Shown here in pieces: positions 1,598 to 7,194 of a stretch of 38,542 nt of DNA. The stretch is from a virus: IMG/VR virus record IMGVR_UViG_3300020156_000058, positions 1-38,542 of that record; one strand, written 5' to 3'. Under the pieces are notes generated by a model. That model searched no databases. It was not told where the DNA came from and saw only the letters and a list, made by a program, of their open reading frames with translations. Positions within the stretch are counted from its first letter, which is position 1. The number at the start of each line of letters is the position of its first letter. The translations under genes and the position numbers were made by a program.

Positions 1598-2314
1598 ATG
1601 CAAACCAAGCACGCCGGCGGCCCCTATATGATCGTCGGGCTGGTCGGCCGCGCCGGCGCCGGCAAGGATACCTGCGCGCAAATCCTTGCCGACGCCCAGG
1701 CCTTCGCGACGGTGGCGTTTGCCGACGCGTTGCGCCGTGAGCTGGTCGGCGCCTTCGGCATCGATCCCCGGCTTTTCGCGAACCGCACGACGAAGGAGCA
1801 GGTGCAGCCCGCGCTGGCGCTCAGCCGCGCCAACGAGCCGCGGTTCGTCGAACTCATGCGTGCGCTGGGCGAGGATCTGACGCGCCCGCGCAGCCCGCGC
1901 GGCCTCATGAGGCTATGGGGCACCCAGTACCGCCGCGCGCTGGATGGCGACAGCTACTGGCTGCTGCGCCTGCACGAAACGGTGGAAGTGCTGCAGGGGC
2001 AAGGCTGGCGCCGCATCGCCATCACTGACATCCGCTTCCTCAACGAAGCGGCTTTCACGCGCGACATCGGCGGCGCGACCTGGCGCATTCACCGCCGGCT
2101 GGCTGACGCCGTGGCGCCCGATCACGACAGCGAGGCCGAGGTCGATCAGATCACCCCCGACCTGCGCTTGCACAACGATGGCAGCGTCAGCGCCCTGGTT
2201 TACGACGTTCTGTGCGCGTACGAGCAAACCCTCTTTCTCAACGGCCCCAGCGGCCACCACAACTCTCAAGTGGGGATTTTCCATGCAGACCATTCAACAA
2301 CCACCGCTCGCTGA
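1598..2314 (+). CDS. deoxynucleoside monophosphate kinase-like protein
   Basis: A P-loop GRAGAGKDT is present near residues 18-26, followed by helical and RFLNEAA/DIRF-type segments found in the T4 gp1-like dNMP kinase family. Members phosphorylate dNMPs to feed phage DNA synthesis, so a cytosolic role in nucleotide metabolism is likely. Two in-frame ATGs exist (1592 and 1598). GGAGG at 1586-1590 is too close to the first, so 1598 is chosen. The last 32 bases overlap the start of the first retroelement target gene, tying the two together translationally. The substrate cannot be read from the sequence. Confidence 0.7.
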   Translation: MQTKHAGGPYMIVGLVGRAGAGKDTCAQILADAQAFATVAFADALRRELVGAFGIDPRLFANRTTKEQVQPALALSRANEPRFVELMRALGEDLTRPRSPRGLMRLWGTQYRRALDGDSYWLLRLHETVEVLQGQGWRRIAITDIRFLNEAAFTRDIGGATWRIHRRLADAVAPDHDSEAEVDQITPDLRLHNDGSVSALVYDVLCAYEQTLFLNGPSGHHNSQVGIFHADHSTTTAR

Positions 2315-2642
2315 AGGCGAGAAGTACGGCTTCGCCATCGGCGACAAGAACGGCAATTTGTATCACGTCATCCTGCTGCCCGGCGACAGCGACCGAGCCG
2401 GTTGGCAGGCCCAGATGGACTGGGCGAAAAGCATCGGCGGCGACCTGCCTACCCGCGCTGAACAGGCGCTGCTGTGGCAGGAGCACCGCAACGAGTTCGA
2501 AACGGAGGCGTACTGGAGCAATGCGATCGAAGAAGACGACGCCGACTACGCCTGGTGCCAGCTCTTCAGCTACGGCCACCAGAGCTACGGCCACAAGAGC
2601 AACGGGCTTCGCGCCCGCGCCGTCCGCAGATTGCCCATTTAA
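2283..2642 (+). CDS. DGR variable protein 1 (C-type-lectin/DUF1566-like target)
   Basis: A 119-residue protein whose residues 89-117 are encoded by the variable repeat at 2547-2633. The body (VILLPGD..., GGDLPTRAEQALL, AYWSN, then YAWxQxFxxGxQ...LRARAVRRL) matches the DUF1566-type C-type-lectin-like fold used by DGR targets. The variable residues sit on the surface loops next to the conserved AW and RAVRR framework. No signal peptide, membrane span or tail-attachment domain is visible. AAGTGGGG lies 7 bases before the ATG, and the gene overlaps the kinase by 32 bases. A paralogue follows at 2697. The ligand is unknown. The tropism role known from Bordetella phage BPP-1 cannot be assumed here, because the gene is in the early operon. 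Confidence 0.85.
   Translation: MQTIQQPPLAEGEKYGFAIGDKNGNLYHVILLPGDSDRAGWQAQMDWAKSIGGDLPTRAEQALLWQEHRNEFETEAYWSNAIEEDDADYAWCQLFSYGHQSYGHKSNGLRARAVRRLPI
2547..2633 (+). repeat. variable repeat VR1 of the diversity-generating retroelement
   Basis: An 87-bp (29-codon) copy of the template repeat at 3686-3772. It differs from the template at 11 positions, in codons 4, 6, 8, 9, 11, 13, 14, 15 and 18, and each difference is at a template adenine. The last 30 bases (GGGCTTCGCG... to ...CAGATTG) are identical and include a 15-base G/C-only run, the likely IMH-type initiation region. The stop codon follows two codons later. Confidence 0.93.
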
Positions 2643-2656
2643 CCCTTATCAATTTC

Positions 2657-2671
2657 GCCGGCCGCGCCGGC
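2657..2671. promoter_or_regulatory. GC hairpin downstream of VR1
   Basis: GCCGGC-CGC-GCCGGC can form a 6-bp stem with a 3-nt loop, starting 23 bases after VR1. Phage DGRs such as BPP-1 have a hairpin or cruciform just 3' of the variable repeat that boosts target recognition. This could be its counterpart, but it is farther away, shorter in loop than the known example, and no similar hairpin was seen after VR2. Confidence 0.3.
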
Positions 2672-2696
2672 ACGTTCGCTCATCTGGGAAATTTCT

Positions 2697-3152
2697 ATGA
2701 CCGTCACGCTCCAGGCCATTGAGGCCAAGCACGCAGAAGTCGCGGCGATGATCGCGACCTACAAAGACCAGCAGCCCACGTCGTACCGAATGCCGGAAGC
2801 CATGATCGAGCTCGCCCGCGGCGAAGACTACGCCGGCATCGTACTCGACGATGAAGGCAACCCCTCGCACCACGTGATCCTGCTGCCCGGCGAAATCGAG
2901 GGTGCTGACTGGGAAGCCGCCAACGCGTGGGCGGAACAGCAAGGCGGCGACCTGCCCACACGCCGCGAGCAGGCCCTGCTCTACGCCAATTGCAAGGCAA
3001 AGTTCCAGCCGCGCGCCTATTGGTCCGTCGAAGAACACGAGTCCGATTCGGGCTACGCCTGGTACCAGACCTTCGGCTACGGCCTCCAGTACGGCTACCA
3101 CGAGAGCTTCGGGCTTCGCGCCCGCGCCGTCCGCAGATTGGTCATTGATTAA
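2697..3152 (+). CDS. DGR variable protein 2 (C-type-lectin/DUF1566-like target)
   Basis: A 151-residue paralogue of the preceding gene with about 30 extra N-terminal residues (a helical start, MTVTLQAIEAKHAEVAAMIA). The shared core includes HHVILLPGE, GGDLPTRREQALLY, AYWS and YAWYQxFxYG...LRARAVRRL. Residues 120-148 are encoded by the variable repeat at 3054-3140. There is no signal peptide or transmembrane segment. The gene starts 54 bases after variable protein 1 and ends 17 bases before the Avd-like gene, giving the order target-target-accessory-template-RT. Two targets served by one template is less common than one. The extra N-terminal helix could mediate oligomerisation or partner binding (inference). 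Confidence 0.85.
   Translation: MTVTLQAIEAKHAEVAAMIATYKDQQPTSYRMPEAMIELARGEDYAGIVLDDEGNPSHHVILLPGEIEGADWEAANAWAEQQGGDLPTRREQALLYANCKAKFQPRAYWSVEEHESDSGYAWYQTFGYGLQYGYHESFGLRARAVRRLVID
3054..3140 (+). repeat. variable repeat VR2 of the diversity-generating retroelement
   Basis: An 87-bp copy of the template with 14 differences, in codons 6, 8, 9, 11, 13, 14, 15, 17, 18 and 19, all at template adenines and none elsewhere. Its pattern differs from VR1 at most variable codons, so the two repeats were mutagenised independently. The terminal 30 bases are identical to both VR1 and the template. Confidence 0.93.
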
Positions 3153-3169
3153 TTCATCCATTTGACGCC

Positions 3170-3544
3170 ATGGCACAGCACACACAGCTCCCGATCTACA
3201 AGGTCGTGTACGACCTCTTGAACATCGTGGCCGACATCCACACGAACATGGACCGCAGCTTCAAGCGCACCATCGGAGAGAAGATCATTTCCGAATGCGT
3301 CGAGCTCACGGTGCTGGTGTTCCGCGCGAATGTCAGCCGCGACAAGGCGCCGTACCTGACCGAGCTGATCGAGAGGCTGCAGGTGATCGAGTTGCTGCTG
3401 CGCCTCGGCAAAGACAAAAGCATCATCCACCGGCCCGCTTGGGCCCGAGCCATCGAACAGACCACCAGCATTGGCAAGCAGGCCAATGGATGGCGCAAGT
3501 CCGCATCTCGCCCGCTCCATGGGGGTCACGATTTCCATGGCTGA
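3170..3544 (+). CDS. avd: Avd-like DGR accessory variability determinant
   Basis: A 124-residue, basic, all-helical protein (IYKVVYDLLNIVADIHTNMD, ERLQVIELLLRLGKDK) of the size and helix pattern of the four-helix-bundle Avd family. In BPP-1, Avd forms a pentamer that binds the reverse transcriptase and template RNA and is needed for cDNA priming. The assignment rests on position (between targets and template), length and helix pattern, because sequence identity in this family is low. No clear Shine-Dalgarno is visible before the ATG. The stop overlaps the candidate reverse transcriptase start at 3537 by 8 bases. Confidence 0.75.
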   Translation: MAQHTQLPIYKVVYDLLNIVADIHTNMDRSFKRTIGEKIISECVELTVLVFRANVSRDKAPYLTELIERLQVIELLLRLGKDKSIIHRPAWARAIEQTTSIGKQANGWRKSASRPLHGGHDFHG

Positions 3545-4883
3545 GCGATCTTTCAATCTGGTCGTGCCGCTGGCCCACAAGGCCACCGACATGCGCACCA
3601 CGGATACCGCCGGCTCAACGCCGGGCCGGTCTGGCGCAGTTTCCCGGCTGAGCATTCGGCCGGGCGACGTAGATTGCACGACGGGTACGCCTGGTACCAG
3701 AACTTCAACAACGGCAACCAGAACAACAACCACAAGAACAACGGGCTTCGCGCCCGCGCCGTCCGCAGATTGTCATGCGCCGTCCGACCTGTTCCCCCTG
3801 CTCGCCCAAGCCTATGCAGACTGCCGCCGCACCAAGCGCAATAGCGCCAGCGCGCTGGCCTTCGAGGCGCGCCAGGAAGCCCATCTGCGCGAGCTGCGCG
3901 ACGAGCTCGCCAGCGGCTCCTATCGCCCCGGCCCGTCCGTCTGCTTTGCCATCACGCGCCCCAAGCCTCGGGAAGTGTGGGCCGCCCAGTTCCGCGATCG
4001 CGTTGTGCATCACCTGCTGCACAACCATATCGCGCCGCGGTTCTACGCCCGCTTCATCGCCGATTCTTGCGCCTGCATTCCTGGGCGCGGGACGCTGTAC
4101 GGCGCGCAGCGCCTGGAGCGCCACGTGCGCAGCATCTCCCGTAACTGGAGCCGCCCGGCCCAGTACCTGAAATGCGACTTGGGGAATTTCTTCCTAAACA
4201 TCGACAAGAACATCCTCCACCGCCTGCTAGCGCGGCATATCAGCGAGCCGTGGTGGCTGCGCCTGACTGAAACCATCCTGCTCCATGACCCGCGACAGGA
4301 CTACCAACTGCGCGGCAGCATGCAGGCGCTTGCGCGGGTGCCGGACTACAAGCAGCTCACGCGCCAGCCTGCGCACCTAGGACTGCCCATCGGCAACCTG
4401 CCCAGCCAGTTCTTTGCCAACGTGTACCTGAATGAATTGGATCAGTTCGTCAAGCACGACCTGCGCTGCCGGCATTACGTCAGGTATGTCGACGACTTCG
4501 TACTGCTGCACGAGTCCCCGCAGTGGTTGACCGAGGCCAAGCGGCGCATCGAGACATTCCTTGCCGATGAGCTGGCTGCACACCTGAATCCACGCAAGAC
4601 GGTGTCGCAGCCTGTGGATCGCGGCATTGACTTCGTAGGCCAGGTCATCAAACCCTGGCGCCGCACCCTGCGCCGGACTACGTTCAACGCCGCCCTCTCT
4701 CGCGTCCGCACGATGCCGGCCGGCGACCTGTTCGAAGCCGCCAACAGCTACTACGGCACGCTGCGCCAGGCGACCCACAGCCATGGCGACCGTGCCGAGT
4801 TCTCCAACGAGCTACGCCGCCGTGGCCATAGCATCAAGACGGACCTCACCAAAACCTATCGCCGATCCGCGAGGAAATCATGA
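3537..4883 (+). CDS. DGR reverse transcriptase
   Basis: The RT domain occupies about residues 80-448. It contains LKCDLGNFF (first catalytic Asp, codon 4176-4178), GLPIGNLPSQ (4380-4409) and RYVDDFVLLH (YVDD at 4485-4496). The (I)GNLPSQ form, with SQ instead of the retroviral SP, is the hallmark of DGR and group-II-like RTs. It would copy the template RNA with adenine-specific infidelity. The start is uncertain: the RT-like sequence begins near 3774, but no ATG, GTG or TTG in this frame follows the template repeat. The nearest are 3591 and 3537; the latter overlaps the avd stop and is preceded by a G-rich run. The template repeat would therefore be translated, in another frame from the targets, as a Thr-rich leader of this protein. 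Length from 3537 is 448 residues, longer than the 328 of BPP-1 Brt. The stop overlaps the next gene (ATGA). Confidence 0.85.
   Translation: MAERSFNLVVPLAHKATDMRTTDTAGSTPGRSGAVSRLSIRPGDVDCTTGTPGTRTSTTATRTTTTRTTGFAPAPSADCHAPSDLFPLLAQAYADCRRTKRNSASALAFEARQEAHLRELRDELASGSYRPGPSVCFAITRPKPREVWAAQFRDRVVHHLLHNHIAPRFYARFIADSCACIPGRGTLYGAQRLERHVRSISRNWSRPAQYLKCDLGNFFLNIDKNILHRLLARHISEPWWLRLTETILLHDPRQDYQLRGSMQALARVPDYKQLTRQPAHLGLPIGNLPSQFFANVYLNELDQFVKHDLRCRHYVRYVDDFVLLHESPQWLTEAKRRIETFLADELAAHLNPRKTVSQPVDRGIDFVGQVIKPWRRTLRRTTFNAALSRVRTMPAGDLFEAANSYYGTLRQATHSHGDRAEFSNELRRRGHSIKTDLTKTYRRSARKS
3686..3772 (+). repeat. template repeat (TR) of the diversity-generating retroelement
   Basis: An 87-bp template with 27 adenines, most of them in AAC codons relative to the target frame (YAWYQNFNNGNQNNNHKNN...). 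AAC codons randomise to NNC and can never become stops. The one AAG codon could become TAG. The last 30 bases are shared exactly with both variable repeats; sequences beyond both ends differ. It lies between avd and the RT domain, in the avd reading phase, with no in-frame stop between the avd stop and the TR. Confidence 0.93.
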
Positions 4884-5317
4884 GCAACCCCCACCGCAAA
4901 GCCCGGCGGGCCAAGCGTTATACGCCGAAGATGGTGCGCACGCCCCTTATGGGGCACTTCTGCGACAAGATCAGCCTGGACATGCACCTGGCGCTGGCTC
5001 GACTGTTTAGCCTGCCCACCACGGACGCGCGTGACGATCTCGCCGACACGCTGAATCTGATCGGTCTGACCATCCAGGGCGACAGCCGTTTCGCCGAAGA
5101 ACTGGCCGTGCTGAACCGGGCCGCCGCGGTGCTGGATCCATACCAGGCGCCCGCCGAGCTACCTGAGGATGGCCGACACATCCTGTCCCACGCCGCCAGC
5201 GTCATCGACACCATTCTTGGCCTGCTGGACGCGGAAACGCTCTACGCGGCCGAACGCGCCTATGTCGCCGCCATGAGAGCGATACGGGCCAAAGGCGGCC
5301 GGGAGCACGCATGCTGA
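4880..5317 (+). CDS. phage hypothetical protein with basic N-terminus
   Basis: A 145-residue protein. The start MSNPHRKARRAKRYTPK is strongly basic; the rest is helical (LDMHLALARLFSL, RHILSHAASVIDTILGLLDAE). This architecture, a short KRYxPK motif and then helices, is seen in uncharacterised early proteins of temperate betaproteobacterial phages. It is coupled by 4-bp overlap to the reverse transcriptase upstream and by 7 bases to the methyltransferase downstream. Nothing shows that it belongs to the retroelement itself, though its position right after the RT makes that worth testing. Confidence 0.55.
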   Translation: MSNPHRKARRAKRYTPKMVRTPLMGHFCDKISLDMHLALARLFSLPTTDARDDLADTLNLIGLTIQGDSRFAEELAVLNRAAAVLDPYQAPAELPEDGRHILSHAASVIDTILGLLDAETLYAAERAYVAAMRAIRAKGGREHAC

Positions 5318-7194
5318 CCTCGCAGCTCGTCCTGGGCCTATCCGCCAAGCTGGTGGTGGACATCTTCGCAGGCGGCGGTGGCTGGTCGACCGCGTACGAA
5401 TTGGCCACCGGTCAGCACGTGCACATCGCGATCAATCACAACCCCGATGCGCTGAGCATGCACCAGATGAACCACCCGCAAACGCAGCATTTCATCGCCG
5501 ACGTGTGGGAAGTGTGCCCGCGCCAGGCGACTGGCGGCGCGCCGGTGGGCTGGCTACACCTGTCGCCCGACTGCACCGACCACAGCCAGGCCAAGGGCGG
5601 ACAGCCTCGGCGCAAGAACATTCGCGCCCTGGCCTGGGTGGCCGCCCGCTGGGCCGGCACGGTCAAGCCCGACATCATCAGCCTGGAAAACGTTGTCCAG
5701 ATCCTGAAATGGGGCCGCCTTATCGCCAAACGCGATCCAGCGACAGGGCGCGTGGTCAAGCTGGACGGGACCGTGGCCGAACCTGGCGAGCGCGTGCCTG
5801 TGCAGGACCAGTATCTGGTGCCGGACCCCAAGCAGCAGGGAAAGCACTGGCGCCGCCTGGTGGCGATCCTGCGCGGCATGGGCTACATCGTCGAGTGGCG
5901 GAAGCTGAACGCTGCCGACTACGGTGCCGGCACCACACGCACGCGCCTATTCATGATGGCCCGTCGCGACGGCCTCCCCGTCGTCTGGCCCGAGCCAACC
6001 CACTTCAAGAGCCCGGTCAACGGACAAAAGCGCTGGCGCGCCGCGGCAGACGGCATCGACTGGAGTATCGAGGGGCGCAGCATCTTCAATCGCTCGCGCC
6101 CGTTGGCCGACGCCACCATGCTCCGTATCGCCCGCGGCATGAAGCGGTATGTGCTGGACAGCGCGAACCCGTTCATCGTGCCCATCGCCAACTGGAGCCG
6201 CGATGGCTCGCACTCGACGCGGCAGCCTATCAGCACGGTCACGGCGAATCCGCGCGGCGGGTCCCATGCCGTGGTGACCCCTGTCCTGGCAGGGGTCGGC
6301 GGGCGAGCGGGCCAGAGTGAGCCGCGGCCAGCCAGCGAGCCGCACTACACCATCACCCGGAAAGGAGACAGCGCCGTCATTGCGCCGGTGCTGGTCCAGG
6401 CTGGGTACGGCGAGCGGGACGGCCAGGCCCCGCGTTGTCTCGACCACGGGCAACCGCTAGGCACCGTTGTCGCCGGCGGGATCAAGCATGCCCTCGCCAC
6501 GGGATTCATGGTACAGGCCAACGGCGGCTACAACACCACGCCGGCCCACGACCTGCGCCGAGCGGCGTCCACCATCACGAACACCGGCAGTCAGCAGCAG
6601 CTCATCACGGCACATCTGACGACGCTACGCCAGCACAGCACCGGCACAGCCGCCGGTGAGCCGGTGACCACCATGGCGGCCGCAGGACAGCACCATGGCC
6701 TTATCGCCGCCCATCTGACGGCGATGAGCCAGAACGTGACGGGCTCGGACATGCGCGACCCAGCGCAGACGGTACTGGCCGGCGCGGGCTGCTACGGCGT
6801 GGTTGAGTACGACATGCTGCCCGACGACGAGGCGGGCGCGCTGCGGGTGGCCGCATTCCTGATGCGCTACTACGGCGAGGGCGGCCAGTTGGGCGATCTA
6901 CGCGATCCAGCCAGCACGCTCACCACGCGCGACCGCCTGGCGCTGGTCACTGTGCACATCCAGGGCGCGCCCTACGTCATTGTGGATATCCGCCTGCGCA
7001 TGCTTTCGCCGGCTGAGCTCTATGACCTGCAGGGCTTCCCCAAGGGCTACATCGTCGAGCGCGGCCACGACGGCCGGGCCTTCACCAAATCCCAGCAGGT
7101 GCACATGGTGGGCAACAGCGTCAGCCCGCCCCCGGCGATTGCGCTGATCGCCGCCAATGCGCCGCGCGAACTTCTTCTGAGGAAAGCAGCATGA
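5311..7194 (+). CDS. DNA (cytosine-5)-methyltransferase, Dcm-type, with internal repeats
   Basis: Motif I FAGGGGW (residues 19-25) binds S-adenosylmethionine. The catalytic Cys is in LSPDCTDHSQAKGG (about 84-97), a variant of the usual PPCQ. ENV (126-128) is motif VI, TRTRLFMMAR matches motif VIII, and GFPKGY...VGNSVSPPPA gives motifs IX-X at the C-terminus. At 627 residues it is longer than a typical 330-450-residue enzyme. The extra length, roughly residues 300-560, is a series of about five related units of ~30 residues (AAHLTAM..., TTMAAAG..., DLRDPAST...) in the target-recognition region. It likely methylates phage DNA against host restriction. No partner endonuclease is encoded nearby. 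Target sequence unknown. Confidence 0.85.
   Translation: MLTSQLVLGLSAKLVVDIFAGGGGWSTAYELATGQHVHIAINHNPDALSMHQMNHPQTQHFIADVWEVCPRQATGGAPVGWLHLSPDCTDHSQAKGGQPRRKNIRALAWVAARWAGTVKPDIISLENVVQILKWGRLIAKRDPATGRVVKLDGTVAEPGERVPVQDQYLVPDPKQQGKHWRRLVAILRGMGYIVEWRKLNAADYGAGTTRTRLFMMARRDGLPVVWPEPTHFKSPVNGQKRWRAAADGIDWSIEGRSIFNRSRPLADATMLRIARGMKRYVLDSANPFIVPIANWSRDGSHSTRQPISTVTANPRGGSHAVVTPVLAGVGGRAGQSEPRPASEPHYTITRKGDSAVIAPVLVQAGYGERDGQAPRCLDHGQPLGTVVAGGIKHALATGFMVQANGGYNTTPAHDLRRAASTITNTGSQQQLITAHLTTLRQHSTGTAAGEPVTTMAAAGQHHGLIAAHLTAMSQNVTGSDMRDPAQTVLAGAGCYGVVEYDMLPDDEAGALRVAAFLMRYYGEGGQLGDLRDPASTLTTRDRLALVTVHIQGAPYVIVDIRLRMLSPAELYDLQGFPKGYIVERGHDGRAFTKSQQVHMVGNSVSPPPAIALIAANAPRELLLRKAA

Follow-up and report, generated by a model that had tools for sequence, protein, structure and literature searches.

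A phage diversity-generating retroelement with one template, two lectin-fold targets and a structured RT-15 leader that may set the start of cDNA synthesis

Diversity-generating retroelements (DGRs) are natural machines for protein diversity. The DGR cassette analysed here lies in the IMG/VR virus record IMGVR_UViG_3300020156_000058, the full 38,542 bases of which are referred to as the window. It comprises two target genes that each end in an 87-bp variable repeat (VR1 and VR2), a gene for the accessory protein Avd, a template repeat (TR), and a reverse transcriptase (RT), together with a structured RNA of the Rfam family RT-15 that forms the 5' leader of the template RNA (Table 1). Direct comparison of the repeats and profile matches of the proteins confirmed these genes, and the repeats at the places given in the original prediction, and the blocks of identity among TR, VR1, and VR2 stop exactly at the coordinates drawn there. 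An exact recount also agreed with the predicted numbers of differences from the template, and none of the 60 non-adenine positions of TR is changed in VR1 or VR2. The hypergeometric probability that all differences fall on adenines is about 5e-7 for VR1 and 4e-9 for VR2. The two variable repeats differ from each other at 14 positions, and they also differ from each other in relatives, which supports the claim that each has been retargeted separately. No further copies of TR or VR were found in the 38.5-kb virus record.

Table 1 Features of the DGR cassette in the window (all on the plus strand).
Feature	Position	Strand	Evidence and remarks
Target gene 1	2283..2642	+	119 aa; VR at C terminus; Pfam Lcl_C, E 3e-6, below curated cut-off
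VR1	2547..2633	+	11 differences from TR, all at TR adenines
Possible target-recognition hairpin	2657..2671	+	GCCGGC-CGC-GCCGGC, 6-bp stem, 23 nt 3' of VR1
Target gene 2	2697..3152	+	151 aa; paralogue of target 1 with longer N terminus; Pfam Lcl_C, E 2e-4, below curated cut-off
VR2	3054..3140	+	14 differences from TR, all at TR adenines
Avd accessory protein gene	3170..3544	+	124 aa; Pfam bAvd PF22296, E 9e-13, above cut-off
RT-15 structured RNA	3506..3688	+	Rfam RF03018, 177.6 bits, E 2e-43; 5' leader of template RNA
RT open reading frame	3537..4883	+	RVT_1; overlaps Avd stop codon, spans RT-15 and TR
Leader strand CAATCTG (CAAUCUG)	3554..3560	+	unpaired in Rfam model; complements TR 3' end; covariation
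TR	3686..3772	+	direct comparison with VR1 and VR2; 27 A, 60 non-A
TR 3' terminus CAGATTG (CAGAUUG)	3766..3772	+	partner of 3554-3560; covariation; TR-VR identity decays here clade-wide

Variation of VR against a constant TR in related genomes, a check that had been proposed earlier, was examined in 80 fetched viral loci with related RTs (numbered with the prefix L below); relatives of one query among viral contigs exceeded 500. An unbiased scan for adenine-biased repeats in the fetched loci found that most have a TR upstream of the RT, usually with two VRs. Between close relatives, the VR differs at 40–57% of the template-adenine positions versus 0–3% of the other VR positions, and in the same pairs the TR differs by 0–2% and the rest of the cassette by 0–17%. 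In the pair L067/L070, for example, 18 of 43 VR adenine positions differ versus 0 of 1724 flanking positions, and the corresponding values for L021/L022 are 32/56 and 3/148. The exception is the pair L025/L078, which is near-identical throughout, including the VRs. A near-identical relative of the window itself was not found among the relatives searched. Within the repeat body, comparison of TR with VR across the clade gave changes at 39–50% of adenine positions and 0.2–2% of non-adenine positions. A second TR-VR set, in which at most 2 non-adenine mismatches were allowed per VR, gave 717/1637 and 3/3403, respectively.

The variation among these relatives supports DGR activity in the clade, as judged from sequence comparison. 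The mutagenesis had originally been called active, a description that stands for the clade by comparison of relatives rather than for this phage by experiment. The prediction of a DGR with one template and two targets is likewise supported, the adenine-only pattern holding clade-wide, and the element is almost certainly a DGR of working type. The DGR itself belongs to a known, common kind. A side feature of the clade is that template adenines before G are nearly unchanged (8/468), while the changed share is 62% when A follows, 42% for C, and 34% for T; these counts do not separate an intrinsic context effect from selection on conserved Q/K codons.

The protein components are readily recognised. 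Avd also matches PHROG 3206 ("Avd protein of DGR", E 2e-28), and a sequence search of the PDB gave no relatives of it at E 0.01. The RT carries the motifs LPIGNLPSQ and YVDD and is homologous to the RT of phage BPP-1 (PDB 8ub7, E 1e-37). For target 1, AlphaFold2 prediction from 31 sequences of the window and its relatives, with L084–L086 left out, gave a fold with a pLDDT of 84. The best Foldseek match of this model in the PDB was the Legionella Lcl C-terminal domain (8q4e), followed by C-type lectins; these matches are weak (E 0.1), though the probability of the first is 0.99. Taken together, the Lcl_C, AlphaFold2, and Foldseek results place the VR at the C terminus of a target with a C-type-lectin fold, as is characteristic of DGRs. 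Stems of at least 6 bp follow the VRs in 34 of 122 cases in the fetched loci versus 5.1 expected from shuffles, mostly 25–33 nt past the VR.

The score of the RT-15 RNA in the window is above the gathering score of the covariance model (82), and the window is thus a member of this family. The RNA overlaps the 3' end of avd and adjoins the 5' end of the template. Among 50 related records, 41 scored over the cut-off, and they are confined to one clade on the RT tree. The 3' end of RT-15 falls within a few nucleotides of the TR start in nearly all matches, L009 and L057 being exceptions. In 35 relatives, the region 5' of TR has a consensus energy of -42 kcal/mol with 39 consensus pairs, 22 of which show compensatory changes. 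The 3' side of TR gave -1.1 kcal/mol in the relatives, with essentially no common structure. Fold z-scores for the window alone were -2.8 on the 5' side and +0.82 on the 3' side.

The template RNA thereby departs from that of BPP-1. The BPP-1-type 3' spacer, represented by Rfam Phage_DGR (RF03022), was not matched in the window up to an E-value of 1, nor over the cut-off in 17 related loci, although BPP-1 itself matches. An Sp-like RNA 3' of TR was sought with RNAalifold, shuffles, and Rfam and was rejected, and the stretch just 3' of TR is the least conserved. The original designation of the element as "BPP-1 type" accordingly fits its mutagenesis and fails for its template RNA, in which the 5' leader RT-15 is found and the 3' spacer RNA is absent.

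The sequence AAUCUG within RT-15 is strongly conserved, is unpaired in the Rfam model, and is the reverse complement of the TR 3' end. In an alignment of 45 distinct loci, nine positions of the leader and the TR end pair in register (swap test, 0/2000). The proportion of paired cells in the helix is 89.2% versus 77.9% after shuffling, and its covariation is 0.316 versus 0.114 (0/500), which collapses if the alignment is slid by one column. The covariation reaches into the poorly conserved bases past TR and ends at position 10. These shuffles retain the relatedness of the loci, and a count on the RT tree was added on that account: seven two-sided changes at helix positions 4–8 all keep the pair, where about two coincidences are expected. 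Bacterial genomes supplied only seven new pairs, with weak agreement (162 of 5000 swaps reached the observed value), and three more viral scans were therefore made. In the 61 previously unused viral pairs that they yielded, positions 6–9 gave a z-score of 8.1 (0/5000 swaps), and position 7 is paired in 54 of the 61 versus 26 by swap. Because the leader strand and the TR end are antiparallel, an RNA terminating after ...CAAUCUG would be directed into the template.

The copied segment ends where this helix begins. The mismatch between TR and VR at non-adenine positions amounts to 0.2% over the ten bases that precede the helix, and within it rises to 12% at positions 3–4, 44% at positions 5–6, and 65% at position 7. 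A sister lineage (L057–L061) has a weak or no RT-15 match, L061 being barely over the cut-off; there TCCGCA at the TR 3' end and TGCGGA in the leader could form a helix in a shifted register, as seen in a single-sequence fold only. A leader helix in RT-15-negative relatives was considered and rejected, the single-sequence folds being inconsistent.

Both the leader and the template lie within the open RT frame. Recognisable RT coding begins near 3801, codon periodicity is present only from about this position, and no start codon was found in the window between TR and the RT domain. Between the Avd stop and the end of TR, the RT frame of 40 loci has 7 stops in 3245 codons versus 101 and 72 in the other two frames, and it is open across the leader and TR in 35 of the 40 loci versus 1 and 4. 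In 61 further loci, the RT frame is open in 43 versus 3 and 4 for the other frames (33 stops versus 166 and 123), and 42 of the 61 have no ATG, GTG, or TTG from the TR end to the RT domain. Most simply, translation of the RT would start upstream of TR and read through the leader and template, with the amino acids little constrained. A coding role for the leader region was rejected because it lacks codon periodicity, though the frame stays open. In a minority of the clade (L051, L053, L054, and others) the RT starts after or inside TR. L030 (3563-4001) and L046, both of the RT-15 clade, separate TR from the RT domain by some 300 or more additional bases, with an ATG before the RT, and are exceptions to the otherwise tight junction.

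To our knowledge, the start of DGR copying has been worked out in detail only for BPP-1. An RNA duplex is reportedly placed in the RT active site for initiation, according to a structure paper of 2025 on the BPP-1 system. For the present element, the DGR of a temperate phage, we propose that a single transcript probably carries avd, the RT-15 leader, TR, and the RT message, the RT frame enclosing the template. The leader would fold, and pairing of its CAAUCUG with CAGAUUG at the template 3' end would close the template into a loop. RT and Avd would bind the folded RNA, and cDNA synthesis would begin at the helix and run toward the template 5' end, with random bases placed opposite adenines. 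The mutated cDNA would then replace the homologous end of either target gene, by which each lectin-fold protein could gain its own new binding face.

A DGR whose copying starts at the leader helix is, in our estimate, the best explanation of the data as a whole, with a probability of roughly 0.85. For the single step in which the helix sets the start of cDNA synthesis, by positioning or priming the RT, we are less confident and regard it as probable. From the comparison of loci we infer that the leader, and not a 3' spacer, forms the duplex from which cDNA starts in the RT-15 clade. Whether a whole clade of phage DGRs takes a strand of its initiation duplex from the 5' leader RT-15, with the template nested in the translated RT message, without a 3' spacer, and with the right polarity for the leader to act as primer after cleavage, is in our judgment evenly balanced.

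Several observations count against this explanation. Helix position 6 is often an A-C mismatch, and the single-sequence minimum-energy fold forms the helix in 20 of 40 loci. The TR 3' junction would also end the TR-VR identity if it were merely a recombination boundary. Neither a 6-bp stem nor a conserved hairpin was found downstream of VR2. In addition, the targets stand among early genes on the strand opposite to the tail genes, a poor fit to a simple tail-fibre role.

The strongest alternative, which we nevertheless consider unlikely, is a BPP-1-like start in which the initiating RNA lies past the 3' end of the template, within the RT coding sequence, with RT-15 stopping the RT at the template 5' end or serving as a scaffold and the helix acting as a secondary clamp. 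In BPP-1, cDNA synthesis initiates in the 3' spacer and terminates inside the 3' end of avd (PMC12875486), the region that RT-15 overlaps here, and the TR 3' end shows a conserved 4-bp complementarity with the RT codons for D-C. However, this match hardly varies and sits in invariant codons, the window has neither conserved structure nor an Rfam match in the little-conserved stretch past TR, and it is the leader helix that covaries into those bases.

Alternatively, the leader and helix might control RT translation without taking a direct part in cDNA initiation. Because the RT frame stays open across the leader and TR, ribosomes probably cross the structure, as this idea would have it. Such control leaves unexplained why the leader pairs with precisely the 3' boundary of the copied segment, and L051 and L053 keep RT-15 and the helix despite an RT start after or within TR; we regard it as rather improbable. 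Still less probable is that the DGR of this phage is silent or decayed and its VRs are frozen from past activity. A single genome of this phage is the basis of the analysis, which leaves room for that reading, but its reading frames, RT motifs, Avd, TR, leader, and VR1 hairpin are all intact and neither VR has a non-adenine change. Ordinary gene duplication followed by drift, as the origin of the three repeats, is already contradicted, since 25 of 25 differences from TR are on adenines and the same bias is seen clade-wide, even though targets 1 and 2 are paralogues.

If the leader-helix start is correct, the initiation duplex can be supplied from either side of the template, and an RNA family catalogued only as RT-15 would acquire a concrete role. 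The RT-15 leader, the nested template, and the helix between leader and template would make up a DGR variant with directly testable initiation, in a compact template RNA with a 7-bp helix of two strands. This RNA arrangement is the new part of the finding; its novelty is provisional, as an earlier statement of the link between RT-15 and DGRs may exist. The window matches the Rfam entry (RF03018), which is also a named annotation in Pseudomonas phage Cruim01. The entry as printed leaves DGRs unmentioned, and its model stops at TR, omitting the partner of the conserved AAUCUG.

Compared with the BPP-1 DGR (mtd/avd/TR/brt), the element shares the adenine-only change from TR to VR, Avd, the homologous RT, a C-terminal VR in a lectin-fold target, and the order target-avd-TR-RT. 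BPP-1 has one large tail-fibre target, its TR follows the avd stop directly, and a spacer of 144 nt on the 3' side matches Rfam Phage_DGR. In contrast, the window has two small stand-alone targets, a gap of 141 nt between the avd stop and TR that is filled by RT-15, and no spacer 3' of TR. Several VRs per TR and TRs overlapping the RT open reading frame were described in 2012 (PMC3521204); in DiGReF group 3 of that study TR overlaps the 5' end of the RT frame, as it does here, whereas the overlap of the window is kept across the clade together with RT-15. In a 2019 survey, 28.6% of DGRs had several VRs, and DUF1566 targets were listed (PMC6642488). Gut phages have two lectin-fold targets, the tentaclins, under one template (PMC10743442); these are of unrelated architecture, unlike the short paralogues of the window. 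Two targets per template is thus a known arrangement and a typical one for the clade.

The same cassette occurs in Burkholderia phage Magia (MT701587), where it was published as a potential DGR (PMC7883833). It has 68% DNA identity to the window over 96%, RT-15, and short lectin-fold targets; Magia is a different phage, a further possible target is annotated several kb away, and RT-15 and the helix are unannotated there. Shewanella phage vB_Sb_QDWS (OK094664) also has two small targets, Avd, a TR within the open RT frame, RT-15, and a DNA cytosine methylase after the cassette as in the window, although it is not annotated as a DGR. Relatives also occur as prophages in Comamonas, Cupriavidus, and Pseudomonas.

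As to what the targets bind, our guess is that they are carried on virions and recognise surface molecules, which we hold to be somewhat probable; action in the infected or lysogenic cell instead is a less likely possibility. No tail-anchor domain was found in target 1, and the targets of the window clade are short, without a recognisable anchor, and share their strand with a nucleotide kinase and a DNA methylase, opposite to the tail genes. In sister lineages without RT-15, the VR domain is often at the end of long proteins of 610–680 aa. One of these loci outside the RT-15 clade, L077 (1472-3304), encodes a 610-aa target that combines an N-terminal domain resembling that of Mtd with the same Lcl_C variable domain, a finding that connects this variable domain to phage receptor binding. 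The tail fibre of the phage itself (15791-17881, minus strand) has a sialic-acid-esterase-like domain (SASA) and no variable repeat.

In relatives, methylases and integrases are among the genes found next to the cassette. In the window, it is closely followed by a C5-cytosine DNA methylase gene (5311-7194), and L016, L022, and Shewanella phage QDWS likewise have methylase-like genes after it. Extra or distant VRs were observed at L005 (904-1007), L011 (2310-2402), and L057 (799-882), and the number and place of targets thus shift within the clade under one template.

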